From IMG/VR virus record IMGVR_UViG_3300042691_026214, positions 1 through 48,648 of that record: a DNA stretch of 48,648 bases; one strand, written 5' to 3'. Each line of letters begins with the position of its first letter. The stretch's first letter is position 1. Below, piece by piece: positions 35,472-44,040 of the stretch. Below the pieces are notes generated by a model. It was given only the letters and a program-made list of their open reading frames with translations. It searched no databases and was not told where the DNA came from. The translations under genes were made by a program, and so were the position numbers. This stretch comes from a virus.

Positions 35472-37448
35472 TTATGTCTCCAAGAGAAGTTGGCCGCCAT
35501 TGGCCTCAAGAAGTAAGGCGCCGCCGGTTTCGGTCAGCAGCAGCGGGGAAAGGTTGGCGAGGGCGTTGATCGCGCCAGCGACCGAAGTCGCCATCAGGCC
35601 GTAAGGGTTTTCGGTGAACGGCAGTTCGTCCGACGCCAGCGGGACCGCGAAGGATGACAGCGAAACAGCCGAGATCAGGGCATTCCGCGCCGTGGTGATG
35701 TCGGTGCCGGGAACGCCGGGATGCAGGCCGTCGTTCGTGTAGAGCGGCGCCTTCCACTTTTGACTGTCAGGCGCGCTTTCGACTGCCCAGGCGCTTTCGA
35801 TGTAGCCGGCCAGAGGTTCGGGAGCGGTCCGGATGTAGGTGTTGACCGTGACGATGGCCGCCGAGTTTGCGTGCGGCGTCTGGTTGCCGACCGTCGCCCA
35901 GCTATCGGTTGAGGTAGTGTAGGGCAGAATGGTTGCGGCCAGCGGCTTGACGCCGATACCGGCCCAACCGCCCCACATAGCGCGCAGGCTGTTGATCAGC
36001 TGCGTTGAGGTCTGGCTGGAGCTGATGTCGCCGATCCCGAGCGTGACGACCACATGCGTCGCGCCGGCCGCCACCGCCAAGGCGTGATCGAGCCAGGCGC
36101 TCCCCTTCGCGGTCATGGCCCGCCGGCCGCTGCTGCTCAGATTGACCACGCCAAACGCGTTTCCAACCGCGTGGCCGAACCAACCCCGATTGTTGTAGGC
36201 GTCGGGCCCGGCCCATGCGCCCGCATTCTGGCTGTCACCGTCGATCACGACGCAAGGCACAGTTGGCAGCACTTCGGCCAGAATGGCGGACGGGCCGTAG
36301 AGGGCCGTTCCGTCGTTGGTGATGGTGGACATTGCGGCGGTCTTGTCGGTCGCCGACGAAGAAGTTTCCGAGGCTTCGCCAAGCGTCGTATTGACCCGCG
36401 AGTTGACGATGGGCGAGCCTTCCGAACAGGTGAACTGCGGAACCCTGGTCCCGGTCTCGGGAACGGCAAACGTGCCGATGAAAACCTTGGCGCCCGCCGG
36501 AACGGTTGTGCTCAGGCTCACGTCCAGCGACTTCACGTCGCCTTTCGGAATTGTCGCCGTCACCGTGCCGATGACGTCATCCTTGCCGGGGTAGGCGACC
36601 GTTGCGGTGACAGTCAGCAGGCCCATCCCAGACGTGCTGTTGCCGCCATCGGTCTGGTAGGAATAGCCGTTGACGTAGACCAGCCGAACGCGCGAGCAGG
36701 CCTGCGTCAGATAGTGGACGCGGCAGCTCATCTTCTTGTCGTTGACCGACCCCTGAACGCTCGTCGGAATGGTCGCGCCCGTGGCGATGTTGCGCCACAC
36801 CCGCTCCGACGCGTTGACCCATTCCGTGTCCGACGCTGTTGCGGTGTTCCAACGCAGGATTTGACCGTCGCTTCCGCCGCTTGCCACGCCAGTTCCAGTG
36901 TCGCCCTTGGGGCCGGTTGAGCCCGTGGCGCCAGTTGCGCCGGTCGCCCCCGTGGCCCCGGTCGGTCCCGTTGCGCCGGTCGCGCCCATGTAGTTGACCG
37001 TCACGATGTTGGTGTCGGTGCGCAGGGTGTAGAGCGTGATGCCCGACGTTCCCGAGCCGGGCGAGCCTTCGGACTGCGCCGCGCTGGCGCCGAGCGCGAT
37101 CTCGAACTGTCCGGCGCAGATCACGACGCGGCCCGTGGCGGTGTATTCGACGAACTCCCAGCCGCGCAGGCCCGGCGTCAGGCTCGTGGTGTCGGCGGCG
37201 GCGAGCGAGCAGGAGATGTACGCGCCGTCGGCGTGGCTGGTCACTGACCCGTTGACGTTGACCGCCGTGGTCCCGCCGTCGCTGTAGACGCGCAGGGCGA
37301 ACTCGCGGCCCGTGTAGCTCTGGACGTCATAGCCGCCCGAGCCGTTCGACTGCTGGAGGCGAAAGCCGACCGTCACCGCCTCGCCGGCGTAGACGATGGC
37401 GTGACCCTCCTCGCCGAAGGGAGGCCGGTTGCGCGAAACGATGCTCAA
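35472..37448 (-). CDS. Tail fibre with collagen-like repeats and SGNH hydrolase domain
   Basis: A 658-residue protein. The N-terminal 150 residues form a beta-rich tail-attachment domain. At about 155-185 there is a Gly-X-Y collagen-like stretch (GATGPTGATGATGATG, GSTGPKGDTGTG). The C-terminal half looks like an SGNH/GDSL hydrolase: VIDGDSQNAG (nucleophile Ser), TLGIGDISS and YTNDGLHPGVPG (Asp-x-x-His). This could remove acetyl or other ester groups from host surface polysaccharide on attachment. The collagen-like stalk probably trimerises the fibre. Confidence 0.8.
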   Translation of the reverse strand: MSIVSRNRPPFGEEGHAIVYAGEAVTVGFRLQQSNGSGGYDVQSYTGREFALRVYSDGGTTAVNVNGSVTSHADGAYISCSLAAADTTSLTPGLRGWEFVEYTATGRVVICAGQFEIALGASAAQSEGSPGSGTSGITLYTLRTDTNIVTVNYMGATGATGPTGATGATGATGATGSTGPKGDTGTGVASGGSDGQILRWNTATASDTEWVNASERVWRNIATGATIPTSVQGSVNDKKMSCRVHYLTQACSRVRLVYVNGYSYQTDGGNSTSGMGLLTVTATVAYPGKDDVIGTVTATIPKGDVKSLDVSLSTTVPAGAKVFIGTFAVPETGTRVPQFTCSEGSPIVNSRVNTTLGEASETSSSATDKTAAMSTITNDGTALYGPSAILAEVLPTVPCVVIDGDSQNAGAWAGPDAYNNRGWFGHAVGNAFGVVNLSSSGRRAMTAKGSAWLDHALAVAAGATHVVVTLGIGDISSSQTSTQLINSLRAMWGGWAGIGVKPLAATILPYTTSTDSWATVGNQTPHANSAAIVTVNTYIRTAPEPLAGYIESAWAVESAPDSQKWKAPLYTNDGLHPGVPGTDITTARNALISAVSLSSFAVPLASDELPFTENPYGLMATSVAGAINALANLSPLLLTETGGALLLEANGGQLLLET

Positions 37449-37477: not shown

Positions 37478-40400
37478 CTAGACGGCCTGGGTCTCGCGAA
37501 GGGCGCGGGCTTGCAGTTCGGTCTGCTCGGTCATCAGGCCGAGGCTTTCGACCGCGATGGCGCCGCGCTGTTCGTTGGCCGCTTGCAGTTCCGCCCGGAC
37601 GCTGGCCATCTCAGCGCGAAGCGACTGAAGCTCCGCGACCACTGCGCTGTTGTCGTTGGCGACCGGCGAAAGAGCGGACGCCTGCGCCGCCGGGGCGGAC
37701 GGAACGCCGAGCGCCGTGTTGAGCGCGACAATCGCCTCGGCGACCGTGATCATGCTCTCGTCCATGCTGATCAGCGGCGAGACCAGATCCTTCAGCGCCT
37801 GAAGCTGCTGCTCGGCGACGCCGATCTGCGCCGTAGCGGAGGCCTCGGCGGCGGTCACGACGTCGCGAACGAGAGCCAGGTCGGCAAAGTAGCCAGAGCT
37901 GCTCGCGTAGTAGGTTTTCGAGGCGTCGAGATAGGCCTGACTGACGTTCTGCAGGTTGCCGAGCGCCTGCTCATTGCCCGCCGTCGCCAGACCCGCCACG
38001 CGCTCGAACTCGGTCTTGCTGGCGAGGTATTGCGCCTCGGGCGACAGAGCGGCGGCCGGGCCTGTGGTCAGGCTGTCGCGGAACTTGCGCAGGTCGGCGG
38101 CGTAGGTGCGGAAGGTGTCGAGCGTGCCGTTCAGGGCCTCGCTCTCGCGGCCATACGCACCCGACAGGGCCTCGCGCGCGTCGGCGACGGCCTGCGTTTC
38201 CTCCGTCACCTTGGCGAAAGCGGGCGCCAGGGCCATCAGAGCGGCAAACAGCTGCGACCCGGCGGCGGTCGAGACGTCGAGCCCCTGCACCACGCCCTTG
38301 AACTGGTCGCGGGTCTTAACGCCGGCCAGACCGAGGCGCGCCAGTTCGGCAGTCACCGCGTTCTGCACCGGGGCCAGTCGCTCGGCCTCGGTCAGGTAGG
38401 TGTCGGCGTAGAAGCTGACCTGCTCCGTGAAATCGTCGAGCGAGCCGAACAGGTCAATCAGACGCTCGCGGGCCATCAGCGAGGAAACGCCGACCGCGCC
38501 GAACGTCTTGCCGATGCTCGAAAGGGTGACGTCGATGACTTGCGACTGCCGAGCCACGCGGGTCAGGGTCTCGAACAGCCCCTCGCCGACCTTCTGGAGG
38601 TCCGTCAGGCCCGGCAGCACGGCCCCGGCCATGTCGTCAGCCAGCTTGCCGAAGACGCCCTCCAGCGCGGCCTGTATCTCCGTGCCGGACATGTCCTTGA
38701 ACGAGAGCTTGCCGAGGTTGACCGTGAACGCCGCCAGCGTCGCCGCCGCGCCTTCGAGGCCCAGCGTTCCCGCCGCCGACAGCACGCCGTCGCGCAGGGA
38801 GCCGATCAGGAGTTCGGTCTGCCGCAAGAAGTCGCCGTCGAGCCCCGTGGTCGAGGTCGAGGTTGAGGTCTTGTCGCTGTAGGTGAGGCCGAAGAACTTC
38901 TTCTTCGTGTTGGTCGCGACCTGCTGATACGCCGAGCCGGTCAGGCCGCCGCTGAGGATGGCGTCAAGCGATCCGCTGCCGAACTGCACGCCCTGATCCT
39001 GGAGCGTGCGCGTCGTGCTGGTGCCGAACAGGCCGGGCAGCAGCGCGGTCAAGGGGCTGAACAGCTTCATCAGCCCGCCCGGGCCGCTTGCCGTCGTGCC
39101 GAGGCCCAGGTTGGACGCGTCCAGCATCCCGCCGGCGCCGAACGACCGGGCCAGAGCCGCCGCGACGGTGCCGATCTGGCTGTCGATGGACCGCAGAGCC
39201 CGCAGCATCCCGTTGCTGTATTCCAGATCGCGGTTGGTGTTCGCCGCGACGATGTTCATCGCGTTGGCAAGGCTTTCCGACTTGGCGTTTGCGTCGCCGA
39301 GGACCGAGCCCGCGCCCTGCATCCGTTGGCGGTCGGCCATGTCGTTGCCGCCCGGAACGCTGCCGGCGCTCGCCCCGCCGCCGCTGATCGCGACACCCAC
39401 GGCGCCGAGCGCGGCCAGCACCGTCGCCCCGGCGGCGAGGTTGAACGGGAACGGCAGGCTTGACAGCGTGTTGGCGAAGGCCGTGATCCCGTAGGCGGTC
39501 GACTTTGTGCCCTCAGCGGCGACGACAGCGGCGACCTCGCCACCCTTCTGCGCCATGGCGGAGATGCTCATCAGCGTCTCGACCGTGCGGAAGGCAATCA
39601 TGGCCACCTGCATGACCTTGTAACCGTCGCTGCCCTCCTTGAAGAACTGCGAACCGGCCTCGGCCATGTCGCCGTACGACTGGACGCGGATGCGGGCGGA
39701 CTCGCGGGCGCTGTCGGCCTCAATCCTCGCGAGATCGGCGACGCTGAGGCCAACGACCTGAAGGTCTCGAGCGCGCTTGGCGTCGACGTCTTTCTGGCGG
39801 GCCTGGAGGCTGCCGTAAGACGTGATCAGCCCGGCAATCCCGCGCCCGACCCCGCTCATGCTGCGCGACACGCCGTCGAACGCCGCCGCAAGGCCGCCGA
39901 CCGCCTCACGGGCGTTGGACGCCATGCGGCCCCATGCATCCGCCGCAGCGTCCGCGGCCTCGACCATGCCGCGCCCGATGAAGTCGCGGGCGCTGTCGCT
40001 CAGGGTGGTCAGCTTCTCAAGCTCTACGCGGACGGCCACCAGCTTTTCGACGGTCTGGTCGGCCTTGTCCGAGCCGTTGTCGTTGGCGAAGTCGCGGTCC
40101 TTGGGCCGGTCGGCGATCAGCGCGGCGGCGTTTCGGTCGTTGCGGTCTCGGTTGGCCTTCCGGATGGCGTCGCCGAACCCGCCGAGAAAGCCGTCGAACC
40201 CCGCGCCGTAGGCGTTGAACCCGCGCTCGAAGCCCTCACGGCCAGCCTTGCCCGCGCCCTCCATGGCGCCGGCAAAGTCGTTTTGGAAACCGCCGAGGTT
40301 CATCTCCTCCAGCGTCGGCAGCTTGAACGTCAGGCCCAGCGCTCCGGCCGCTGCGTTGGCAAAGCCGATCACGACGTTGATGGCGCCGATGGCCTTGTTG

Positions 40401-41440
40401 ATCATGGCCTCGATGGTGCTTACGACGAGGTTGGCCGCGCTGATCGTCGCGTCGCCCAGCACCGCCGGCAGCATCCGCCAAGTGGCGCCGATGGCGTAAA
40501 AGCTGCCGACGAACACGCCGCCGACAAGCTTGGACGCGCCAACGACAATCCGGGCGACCTGATCGAACGTCCACTGAAACGCGCCGCCGAGCCATTTGAG
40601 GGCCGGGCCGAACGCCTCCATGATGCTGTCGCCCGCGTGCTTCATGCTGCCGCTGACGACATCGCCCATGGTGATGGACGTGTTGCCCATCTTCTTCATT
40701 TCGGCGTCGGTAAGGCCGAGGCGCTTTTGCAGTTCGGCCGCGCTCTCGCCGCCCTTGTTCAGCTGGTTCGCCGCAAGGGCCACGCCACCCGCCACGACGG
40801 CCGCCGCCGCGCCTACGGCCACCAGGATCGGCAGCAGCGGCCCGGCAGCGGCGACCATGCCGCGAAGGGCGCCGGAGAAGCCCACGCCGCGCGCACTGGC
40901 TTGGCCGAAGATGTCGGCGACCTGCGGGCCCTGCTGGATCATGACCATCAGCGGGTTCATGCCCATAGCCAGCGAGACGCCGACGTCGGCCATCTGGCGT
41001 GACAAGTTCAGGCTTTCGGTCGCCGTCAGGCCGATGGCCTTTGCGCCCCGGGCCTGCGCGGCGTTCATCAGGTTCTGCGCCGTGACCGCCGAAGACAGCC
41101 GGGCCTCCAGCACGTCGACATATCGCGCGTACTCAGCCGCCCCGATGGCCCCGACCTTGTACAGCGCGTCGGCCTCGCGCATCTCGGTGTTGGCCCGCTT
41201 CATGGCCACGGCCAGCGGGTCGACAGAGGCGCGCAGGGCGTCGGCCCGGGCGTCGATGGCCTGTAGGGACGCCGGGATGGCCGAAAGCCCGCCCAGCGAC
41301 GCCTTGGAGGCGCTGCCAAGGCTGGTAACCGACGCTTCCGCCCGTCCGCCCGCCGTCGTCAGCTTGTCGAGGGACGCAGCGCCGGTGTCGGCTTGGCTGG
41401 CGTCGATCTTGATCATCAGGGAGGCGATGTCGGGCGTCAC
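37478..41440 (-). CDS. Tail tape measure protein
   Basis: A 1320-residue protein, the largest gene here; its length sets the tail length. Starts at GTG 41440 in GTGA with the end of the chaperone extension. Features: an N-terminal helical region with the LKKLT/EASVTSLGSASK repeats, a central hydrophobic part (GPLLPILVAVGAAAAVVAGGVALAA), coiled-coil stretches and Ala-rich helices. The C-terminal part is coiled-coil and includes MGNTSITMG-like and LSPEAQYLASKTEFERVAGL segments. Located between tail chaperones and fibres, the normal site. Confidence 0.9.
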   Translation of the reverse strand: MTPDIASLMIKIDASQADTGAASLDKLTTAGGRAEASVTSLGSASKASLGGLSAIPASLQAIDARADALRASVDPLAVAMKRANTEMREADALYKVGAIGAAEYARYVDVLEARLSSAVTAQNLMNAAQARGAKAIGLTATESLNLSRQMADVGVSLAMGMNPLMVMIQQGPQVADIFGQASARGVGFSGALRGMVAAAGPLLPILVAVGAAAAVVAGGVALAANQLNKGGESAAELQKRLGLTDAEMKKMGNTSITMGDVVSGSMKHAGDSIMEAFGPALKWLGGAFQWTFDQVARIVVGASKLVGGVFVGSFYAIGATWRMLPAVLGDATISAANLVVSTIEAMINKAIGAINVVIGFANAAAGALGLTFKLPTLEEMNLGGFQNDFAGAMEGAGKAGREGFERGFNAYGAGFDGFLGGFGDAIRKANRDRNDRNAAALIADRPKDRDFANDNGSDKADQTVEKLVAVRVELEKLTTLSDSARDFIGRGMVEAADAAADAWGRMASNAREAVGGLAAAFDGVSRSMSGVGRGIAGLITSYGSLQARQKDVDAKRARDLQVVGLSVADLARIEADSARESARIRVQSYGDMAEAGSQFFKEGSDGYKVMQVAMIAFRTVETLMSISAMAQKGGEVAAVVAAEGTKSTAYGITAFANTLSSLPFPFNLAAGATVLAALGAVGVAISGGGASAGSVPGGNDMADRQRMQGAGSVLGDANAKSESLANAMNIVAANTNRDLEYSNGMLRALRSIDSQIGTVAAALARSFGAGGMLDASNLGLGTTASGPGGLMKLFSPLTALLPGLFGTSTTRTLQDQGVQFGSGSLDAILSGGLTGSAYQQVATNTKKKFFGLTYSDKTSTSTSTTGLDGDFLRQTELLIGSLRDGVLSAAGTLGLEGAAATLAAFTVNLGKLSFKDMSGTEIQAALEGVFGKLADDMAGAVLPGLTDLQKVGEGLFETLTRVARQSQVIDVTLSSIGKTFGAVGVSSLMARERLIDLFGSLDDFTEQVSFYADTYLTEAERLAPVQNAVTAELARLGLAGVKTRDQFKGVVQGLDVSTAAGSQLFAALMALAPAFAKVTEETQAVADAREALSGAYGRESEALNGTLDTFRTYAADLRKFRDSLTTGPAAALSPEAQYLASKTEFERVAGLATAGNEQALGNLQNVSQAYLDASKTYYASSSGYFADLALVRDVVTAAEASATAQIGVAEQQLQALKDLVSPLISMDESMITVAEAIVALNTALGVPSAPAAQASALSPVANDNSAVVAELQSLRAEMASVRAELQAANEQRGAIAVESLGLMTEQTELQARALRETQAV

Positions 41441-41823
41441 TTCGTCTCCTTTTCAGATTGTTGGACCGACGCCAGCCACAGGGCGTCCAGCTTCAGGATG
41501 GTCGCGCGCTCCCACCCGTTGAGGCGGTGGAAGGTGTCGGCCTCCCACGCGTGAAGGTCATGGCGGGTCAGGGGGTTGGGGCCGAAGCCGGAGCTTGTCC
41601 GGGTCGAGGCCAGATCAACCCACCAGGACCACAGGTACGCGGCCAGCGGCGGGATAGGCGGGATGTTGGCGAGGATGGCCTCGGCTTCGAAATCGCCTTG
41701 CCGGGCCAGCGCCTCAAGCTGGACCCGGTAGGCGCATTTGCCCCCCGCGCCGTCGTCGACCTGCCGGGCTAGTTCAAAGGTGGACTCGGCGTAGGCGATC
41801 AGGCCTTCGGCGAGTCCGGCGTA
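41437..41823 (-). CDS. Tail assembly chaperone extension made by -1 frameshift (GT-type)
   Basis: After the chaperone at 41799-42242, the -1 frame stays open to TGA 41437 and reads as a protein (LAEGLIAYAESTFELARQ, FEAEAILANIPPIPPLAAYLWSWWVDLAS, FGPNPLTRHDLHAWEADTF, ending VQQSEKETK). I saw no in-frame ATG, GTG or TTG in it, so it cannot start by itself. A TTTT at 41826-41823 lets Phe-tRNA slip back one base just before the upstream stop, giving a fusion of about 268 residues. This is the lambda G/GT arrangement, in which the long form binds the tape measure. Confidence 0.75.
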   Translation of the reverse strand, partial: YAGLAEGLIAYAESTFELARQVDDGAGGKCAYRVQLEALARQGDFEAEAILANIPPIPPLAAYLWSWWVDLASTRTSSGFGPNPLTRHDLHAWEADTFHRLNGWERATILKLDALWLASVQQSEKETK

Positions 41824-42242
41824 AAACGGGCGGCCTCGGCGGTCTTCGCGAGGATCTGGTTTCCAAGCCCGTCCCAGTAGCGCAGGAGCGCCATCACGTT
41901 GGCTTCGGTAAACTCGTCCGGCATGTTCCAGCCGGCGACGCGCACGGCGATCAGCTTGCGGCCGAAGTTGCTCATGTCCTCGACGGTCGAGATCGGCGCC
42001 TCACCGGGCCGGGCCTTTTCGGCTTGCGCGGCCATCAGCTGCTGCTTGCGGGCGTTGGCGTCGATCAGGTCCTTCAGCCGCGCGTCAACGCTCGGGGCCA
42101 GATCGCTCTTGAGCTTCAGGACGATGCCGGACGGCTCAAGGCTCGGCAGCAGCGGCTCGAAGTCGAACGTGTCCTCGTTGGCGACCTGGGCCTTGATGTC
42201 GGCGAGCGAAAACGGCTTGGCGGCCTTGGGGGTCTCGGTCAT
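41799..42242 (-). CDS. Tail assembly chaperone (G-type)
   Basis: A 147-residue protein, helical and charged (PFSLADIKAQVANEDTFDFEPLLPSLEPSG, ATVEDMSNFGRKLIAVRVAGWNMPDEFTEANVMALLRYW). Position directly after the major tail protein and before the tape measure fits the short tail chaperone. The stop is preceded by a TTTT slip site leading into the extension at 41437-41823. It is made in excess of the long form and helps form the tail around the tape measure. Confidence 0.75.
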   Translation of the reverse strand: MTETPKAAKPFSLADIKAQVANEDTFDFEPLLPSLEPSGIVLKLKSDLAPSVDARLKDLIDANARKQQLMAAQAEKARPGEAPISTVEDMSNFGRKLIAVRVAGWNMPDEFTEANVMALLRYWDGLGNQILAKTAEAARFTPDSPKA

Positions 42243-42352: not shown

Positions 42353-43570
42353 TCAGGCGGCGAGGCTGTCTTGCGTCGAGAAGATGGTCTGGTGACTGGC
42401 CAGCGCCGCCCCGCCCGAGCCGTTGTACTCGGCCATGAAGTTGTAGGTCCGGACGATGGCCTTCTCGGCGTCGTCGCGGGTGTCGCTGGAGATCTTCACG
42501 CGCGGCATGACGAAGGTCACAAACTCCGAGCCCGCCGTGCTGTCGACCGCAGCCGTCAGGACCAGCACGACCGGCGTTTGCTCGTCGTACAGGGTCTGCA
42601 GGCTGATGCCGGTGAACTTGGCCGTGAACGAACCCGACACCATCACGCGGCCCTCGTCGGTGTCGGTGATTGCGTTGGAGCCCACCTCCGCCTCGCCCGG
42701 CTTCTCGCCGCCCATCAGCGTGATCTGCGCGCCCGTGATCGGCACGACGACGCCGTTGACGATCAGCTTGCCGTTGACGGCCTGATTGACGCTGGCCGTC
42801 GACGAGGCGGTCGGGGAGGTCAGGACCTGCGAGGAGCCGAGCGTGCGGTTGAGGCCGATGAAGTCGAAGTCATTCGTGACGTTGCCGCTGGCCGGAAGAC
42901 CAATGGCCACCTGCGTCGGCTTCACGTCGGTCCAGGTTTCCGAGCGCGACACGTCCGAGAACCACTCCTCGAAGGTATAATAGTCGTCGGTGTGCGAGGA
43001 CGTCGCGGCCCAGCACTTCTTGCCGGGGACGGCGATGGTGCAGGACGAAATCGGACCCTCGGCGACCAGTGCCGAGCTGTTGAGCGTGGTCACCGTCAGG
43101 ACGGTGGCCGTCACGCCGATCACCAGCAGGTTCTTGTTCAGGTTGGAGGCGTTGACCGAGCCGGCGGTGATGCGCACGACGTCGCCGATCTTGATGCCGC
43201 CGGTGAGGAAGTCGCCGGAGCCACGGGTGACGGTGTAGTTGGAGCCCGAGGTGGCGATGGTCAGCGACAGGCTGGTGATGCTGGTGGTCGAGGCCCAGGT
43301 CTTCTTGAGCAGGGTCGAATAGAACGCCTGATAGGACCCGCCCGAGAGCAGCGCCATCAGCTTGCCGGTGACGCGGCGGATGCCGGCGGTCTGGCCGGTG
43401 GACTGGCGGTGCTCGACGATCTCGTCGTTCTCGTAGGTGTCCCGGGCGAGGGTGAAGAGACTGCCGGGACGACGGCGCAGCAGCTGGCCGCCGGAGCCGG
43501 AGGCGGCGGTGCCGAGGGCGGATTGGGCCTTATAGGCCAGCGTCATTGCAACGCCGTTAGCGTTGGGCAT
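42353..43570 (-). CDS. Major tail (tube) protein
   Basis: A 405-residue protein that should form the tail tube. N-terminal ANGVAMTLAYKAQSALGTAASG and RRRPGSLFTLARDTYENDEIVEHRQSTG resemble the phage tail-tube family of this phage group; the body is beta-rich (TVTRGSGDFLTGGIKIGDVVRITAG) with an Ig-like look and the C-terminal EYNGSGGAALASHQT. Strong ribosome binding site GGAGA before ATG 43570. It lies after the tail terminator and before the chaperones, with a terminator downstream that suits high expression. Confidence 0.8.
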   Translation of the reverse strand: MPNANGVAMTLAYKAQSALGTAASGSGGQLLRRRPGSLFTLARDTYENDEIVEHRQSTGQTAGIRRVTGKLMALLSGGSYQAFYSTLLKKTWASTTSITSLSLTIATSGSNYTVTRGSGDFLTGGIKIGDVVRITAGSVNASNLNKNLLVIGVTATVLTVTTLNSSALVAEGPISSCTIAVPGKKCWAATSSHTDDYYTFEEWFSDVSRSETWTDVKPTQVAIGLPASGNVTNDFDFIGLNRTLGSSQVLTSPTASSTASVNQAVNGKLIVNGVVVPITGAQITLMGGEKPGEAEVGSNAITDTDEGRVMVSGSFTAKFTGISLQTLYDEQTPVVLVLTAAVDSTAGSEFVTFVMPRVKISSDTRDDAEKAIVRTYNFMAEYNGSGGAALASHQTIFSTQDSLAA

Positions 43571-43629: not shown

Positions 43630-44040
43630 TCAGGCCGGGTAGACTTCGGCGTAGAAGCGGATGCGCACCGGCACCGCCCATCGGTTTTTGTCGACGAACC
43701 CCGGCATGATTTCGGGCGTCTGTTCGATGATGGTCCGAACGCCGGAAGCGGTGAACGTCGCGCCACGGTAGAAGGTGGCGCGCAGGGCCTCAGCGCGGGC
43801 GGTAGCCGCCGCCGAGCCTTTTGTGAGGGGGTAGCGCAGCGTGACCTGCATAAAGCCGCTCTCGACGTAGGCGCGCCCGATCTCTTGATTTACGGGACGG
43901 GCCGTGAGCAGGTTGACCGCCTGATAGGGGACGGTGTCGGCCGGCGGCGTGAACTCGTCGTTTTCCCAGGCAGTGGCGATGTTGGTCGTCATCCCGTTGA
44001 GCGCGGTTTCCAGTGCGACGCGGACGGCAACGAGGCTCAT
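43630..44040 (-). CDS. Tail terminator / tail completion protein
   Basis: A 136-residue protein (SLVAVRVALETALNGMTTNIATAWENDEFTPPADTVPYQAVNLLTARPVN, and a strand-rich C-terminus). The layout matches the DUF4128-type tail terminator that caps the tube and joins it to the head. It overlaps the previous gene's stop by 4 bases (ATGA-type) and lies just upstream of the major tail protein. Confidence 0.7.
   Translation of the reverse strand: MSLVAVRVALETALNGMTTNIATAWENDEFTPPADTVPYQAVNLLTARPVNQEIGRAYVESGFMQVTLRYPLTKGSAAATARAEALRATFYRGATFTASGVRTIIEQTPEIMPGFVDKNRWAVPVRIRFYAEVYPA

Follow-up and report, generated by a model that had tools for sequence, protein, structure and literature searches.

A candidate programmed −1 frameshift of the lambda G/GT type at a tetramer-type slip site in a phage tail assembly chaperone gene

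Organization of the late-gene locus

The window analyzed here is a 48,648-nt stretch of DNA (positions 1 to 48,648 of the IMG/VR virus record IMGVR_UViG_3300042691_026214), in which the late genes are carried on the minus strand: the major capsid protein gene comes first, followed by those for the tail terminator, tail tube, chaperone, extension, and tape measure protein. Gene order and protein family matches agree in placing the chaperone gene after that for the tail tube and before that for the tape measure protein. The features of the locus are as follows:

43630..44040, minus strand: tail terminator (PF13554, E = 1.7e-23)
42353..43570, minus strand: tail tube protein, encoded upstream of gpG (PF18906 Phage_tube_2, E = 3.7e-17)
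41799..42242, minus strand: gpG, short tail assembly chaperone, 147 a.a. (PF08748 Phage_TAC_4, E = 8.8e-5, cut-off passed)
41820..41829, minus strand: putative slip site C_CGU_UUU_ACG with the essential core U_UUU at 41826-41823 (from the sequence and from a codon common to the −1 relatives)
41782..41817, minus strand: predicted stem-loop (−21.5 kcal/mol), with the gpG stop codon in the loop
41440..41823, minus strand: 128-codon T extension in the −1 frame (PF23812 Phage_TAC_18, E = 3.3e-12; AlphaFold pLDDT 89.8)
37478..41440, minus strand: tape measure protein (PF06791, E = 1.4e-16; phrog_7740 tape measure, E = 3.7e-54)

The gpG gene starts with ATG at 42242, preceded by GAGGA at 42250-42246, ends with a stop codon at 41801-41799, and its product also matches the phrog_313 tail assembly chaperone (E = 1.7e-6). 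At the other end of the extension, the GTG start codon of the tape measure gene overlaps the T stop codon (GTGA), and an AGGAG (41450-41446) falls within the T codons; translation of the tape measure protein may be coupled to that of the rare gpGT or may start independently (window 41437-41450, minus strand). We also noted a 658-a.a. open reading frame with a TTG start at 35472-37448 (minus strand) with, by eye, a short collagen-like Gly-X-Y stretch and an apparent GDS-type hydrolase motif, which is possibly a tail fiber or tip protein.

The start-less T extension

No stop interrupts the −1 frame between 42000 and the TGA at 41439-41437, and a scan of its 187 codons, 128 of which follow the proposed slip, found no ATG, GTG, or TTG, bearing out the original prediction of a 128-codon extension without a start codon. 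The probability of finding no start in 128 codons is 0.0013 under late-gene codon usage and 0.19 given the residues of T itself (no Met, 4 Val, and 16 Leu); because of the latter value, the absence of a start codon is by itself weak evidence. The T frame is nonetheless real coding sequence, as was surmised from its protein-like appearance. Codon usage scored +0.37 per codon in this frame, which has no internal stop codon; the two alternative forward frames scored −0.81 and −0.84 and contain 3 and 5 stop codons, respectively. The Phage_TAC_18 match agrees. In the extension-only part, comparison with L009 (an independent contig ~10% diverged from the window at the DNA level) gave 8, 6, and 26 changes at T-frame codon positions 1, 2, and 3, corresponding to 22 synonymous and 10 nonsynonymous codons.

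With the Pfam threshold relaxed to E = 1, the two parts had no hits other than TAC_4 and TAC_18, the lambda gpG/gpT families not being among them, and PDB sequence searches and a PDB fold search gave no convincing match. When the T-domain model (pLDDT 89.8) was compared against BFVD, it matched the 268-a.a. tape measure chaperone of Escherichia phage Seurat (E = 8.8e-5) and, more weakly, the tail chaperones of the K1H, Loki, and CcrColossus phages.

The slip site

In the zero frame, the chaperone gene ends in GCC CGT TTT ACG CCG GAC TCG CCG AAG GCC TGA. The TTTT at 41826-41823 would join the chaperone to the −1 frame, as originally proposed, with TTT being the ninth codon from the end when the stop is included; a slip of one base backward at this codon would have UUU re-read, followed by UAC. 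This phage is G+C-rich, and NNT TTT is a rare combination: ten late genes contain 115 xxx-Phe codon pairs, of which only the slip site itself is NNT TTT in the zero-frame register.

The site (C_CGU_UUU) does not conform to the canonical two-tRNA heptamer X_XXY_YYZ, which is present in relatives such as L015, L018, L024, and L046-L048. It had been correctly described as lacking the classical heptamer, yet it is not anomalous, given CGT TTT provides U_UUU, a Z_ZZN tetramer that allows cognate A-site re-pairing and belongs to a class of shift motifs tested in E. coli (PMC4066793). In that host, a Z_ZZN tetramer is enough for a −1 shift when accompanied by a downstream structure, with tetramers ranking A_AAG >> U_UUC > U_UUU and well under the best heptamers (PMC4066793). 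The tool PRFect includes a ‘twoonefour’ motif among tail-chaperone sites which, going by its name, would cover CCGTTTT (PMC10885494). After the slip, the Phe tRNA would re-pair perfectly and the Arg tRNA would not; because CGU, the P-site codon, allows no proper re-pairing with CCG, efficiency may be low.

A Shine-Dalgarno-like upstream stimulator (GAGG before CGT), checked by eye, was not common to relatives. We also considered a substitution-free 70-nt block around the site in comparison to L009, but dropped the initial value (P = 0.0002), as that test took in unaligned sequence; on the aligned 3 kb, one longer run exists, leaving the block in second place (P = 0.12), and we do not use it as evidence.

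Conservation of the junction among relatives

To collect relatives, we used phage records and IMG/VR contigs together with bacterial assemblies, most of them Caulobacterales. The T-domain is −1 relative to the chaperone preceding it in 59 of 89 distinct homologous sequences, and nearly all of these 59 are joined at the same Phe codon. In one aligned set, all 16 loci have a codon ending in T before the Phe codon, TTT or TTC as the Phe codon itself, and the chaperone stop at +22. The junctions are distributed as follows:

CGT TTT: window, L013, L016
GGT TTT: L015, L022
AAT TTT: L003, L018, L023, L024, L046-L048
AAT TTC: L001, L049
GCT TTT: L017, L019
Distant relatives: GAT TTT (L005 group); T runs U_UUU_UUC (Pamexvirus-like); G_GGA_AAG (L004)

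A slippery site thus sits at the junction in the window (U_UUU, 41826-41823) and at the same codon in relatives, with near relatives carrying a full heptamer at this place (G_GGU_UUU and A_AAU_UUU). A script sorted the 59 distinct −1 sites into 30 with the U_UUY tetramer only (5 of which, L002, L149, L150, L152, and L154, allow an alternative reading as the heptamer U_UUU_UUG at the next codon), 25 with a canonical heptamer, and 4 others at the Phe codon (in 3 of which, L035, L103, and L004, G_GGA_AAR/Y adjoins the Phe codon). In a separate assignment of frames, the label ‘inframe’ for L047 was wrong, the actual junction being −1 at A_AAU_UUU.

Comparison with related phages, which the original prediction had called for, thus favored it: besides the 59 of 89 T-domains in the −1 frame, the Seurat and DMU1 homologues are deposited as joined frameshift products, and together these support a programmed −1 frameshift parallel to lambda G/GT. 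A start codon in homologues, which would have spoken for a separate gene, appears only as scattered internal ATG, GTG, or TTG codons that share no position and lie downstream of conserved junction-adjacent residues. In the majority of the remaining deposited relatives that were examined, either two separate proteins are annotated or the gap is left without a gene. In the GenBank phage records L035, L036, L037, L039, L040, and L006, the T frame is unannotated, and others use a false internal start. A single-protein scan of genome contigs gave no match, and a broad alignment held no stretch conserved enough to serve as a search query. Separately, we noted that in Pseudomonas phage PaMx28 (L027, ~980-1000) the slip run is one T shorter (CTTTTTTCG, compared to CTTTTTTTC in phiH1; cf. 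L028), which puts the extension in the +1 frame and is either a sequencing slip or a real difference.

A predicted downstream hairpin

A hairpin missing from the original prediction is predicted to start 5 nt after TTTT. Its stability stands out in short windows (z = −3.9 at 50 nt and −4.6 at 40 nt) but is not outstanding at 80–100 nt. When the T codons past the chaperone stop, which form the 3′ arm, were synonymously recoded, the fold became less stable in 96% of trials (P = 0.036 for the window). Fisher’s combination of this test gave P = 0.0005 for 13 loci and P = 0.005 for five near loci, noting that the combined loci are mutually related, that the codon usage of the window was applied to all, and that L005, in which the hairpin is absent (P = 0.99), lies outside the combination. 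Across 16 loci, 65% of the pair cells of the window hairpin are retained and 5 pairs have changed on both sides, modestly above shuffles, while RNAalifold found no consensus structure in the wider family and the hairpin is absent from certain relatives, L005 and L003 among them. These comparisons lend moderate support to selection on the hairpin, which is probably common to close relatives and rebuilt or lost elsewhere.

Interpretation and alternative explanations

Judged from sequence comparison, the region is very probably a programmed −1 frameshifted tail assembly chaperone of the lambda G/GT type with a tetramer-type slip site. Many annotators give the extension its own gene, and a separate protein might arise by re-initiation at a non-standard start such as CTG, one of which lies at 41802-41800 and shares bases with the chaperone stop (CTGA). 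However, the corresponding codon is no start in relatives (GTA in L015 and L001, ATA in L018), initiation at CTG would lose conserved residues ahead of it (Y1 and L4), and no internal start is shared across relatives; we regard such a protein as improbable.

Two further explanations would dispense with ribosomal slippage, and we consider both still less probable. Slippage of RNA polymerase on the T run, which would yield mRNAs with an altered base count and hence a fusion, is conceivable as T runs are slippery for this enzyme too and some relatives carry 6–7 T, but the four T seen here fall far below the lengths cited for polymerase slippage (Tn, n > 8; PMC3711429), and relatives with A_AAU_UUC or G_GGA_AAG have no long run, making it very improbable. 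The most improbable of all is that a sequencing error or frameshift mutation split one continuous gene: while one base added at the junction would join both frames, isolates, metagenomes, and bacterial assemblies together provide 59 distinct sequences with the −1 layout, the site is identical in the independent, ~10% diverged contig L009, and none of the loci checked showed the two parts fused in one frame.

Under the programmed frameshift, most ribosomes would complete gpG (147 a.a.). In a minority, probably slowed by the hairpin, the tRNA-Phe on UUU (41825-41823) would slip one base back onto the overlapping UUU, and reading would continue in the −1 frame to give a minor product, gpGT, of 268 a.a. 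This would comprise 140 gpG residues ending in EAARF, then YAGLAEG and the remainder of T; the predicted tryptic peptide across the fusion is FYAGLAEGLIAYAESTFELAR. If the lambda model applies here, the tape measure protein would be coated by gpG, and tail tube subunits would be brought in by the T part of the scarce gpGT.

Direction of the shift

The most interesting by-product of the analysis is a related clade of 30 distinct sequences, in which a +1 join links this T-domain to the chaperone at the same Phe codon (AAY_UUU_CGN, or TGC). Its members are Limnohabitans phage DC31 (L006, locus ~1470-1500) and most of the loci L051-L090 (IMG/VR contigs). Its nearest sisters have a −1 join at A_AAU_UUU instead, L083 and L086 at ACA AAT TTT ACG and L091 at TCA AAT TTT ATT, and are placed with good support among or beside the +1 clade; the tree needs two direction changes. 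By eye, the fusions are collinear at the junction (NF|DPSEIEEAVAF compared to NF|YAEDLEELIEY). In bacteria, UUU_Ynn is known to be +1-prone, and the influenza A cassette reads UCC_UUU_CGU (PMC5009743). On balance, we favor the view that the conserved site is a single Phe UUU codon rather than a heptamer, with its surroundings setting the direction (U_UUU, mostly then A, giving −1; UUU_CGN or UUU_UGC giving +1), and that at least two flips have occurred within the T-domain family while the fused protein stayed collinear.

Comparison with known systems

The slip site of lambda G/GT is the heptamer G_GGA_AAG. The window differs in its site (C_CGU_UUU) and in its Pfam families (TAC_4 and TAC_18, not those of lambda). 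Both share a gene located between those of the tail tube and tape measure and a short chaperone with a minor −1 extended form (predicted in the window), an arrangement that is widely conserved (PMC5009743).

Closer parallels are found in two annotated phages. In Seurat phage, the 268-a.a. product is a two-piece join and the short form beside it is noted with ‘ribosomal slippage’, although the shift there lies at a heptamer-type U_UUU_UUC and sequence similarity to the window is low. Acinetobacter phage DMU1, reached via the homologue L037, carries a gpG/gpGT pair with a ‘frameshift product gpGT’. The phiCbK and CcrColossus phages, the latter a weak fold match, have a −1 extended tape measure chaperone and infect Caulobacter, the nearest bacterial-genome relatives of the window being Caulobacterales, but their sites are the heptamers AAAAAAC and GGGAAAC (PMC3556154).

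The tail chaperones of Vandenendeviridae and Andersonviridae are likened to the window by description rather than homology: a T-run site has been proposed for the −1 shift, and the extension is mis-annotated as a hypothetical protein, as in relatives of the window, whereas these phages are myoviruses and their motif is GTTTTT (PMC12846349). The U_UUU tetramer class has a zero-frame U_UUU like that of the window, together with a downstream structure, for which the window offers a predicted hairpin; the measurements on this class used IS3 signals in E. coli rather than the phage of the window or its host (PMC4066793).

The locus in the window therefore adds to an already known kind, homologues in Seurat and DMU1 phages being already annotated as frameshift products. 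The start-less open reading frame thereby becomes a tail chaperone gene, which explains why the interval between the chaperone and tape measure genes is left empty in many deposited relatives or is filled by a ‘hypothetical protein’ whose internal start is false. The family forms a natural series of slip sites (heptamer, tetramer, and +1) that share one homologous codon, and it offers a means to study how the direction and strength of frameshifting are determined in bacteria.
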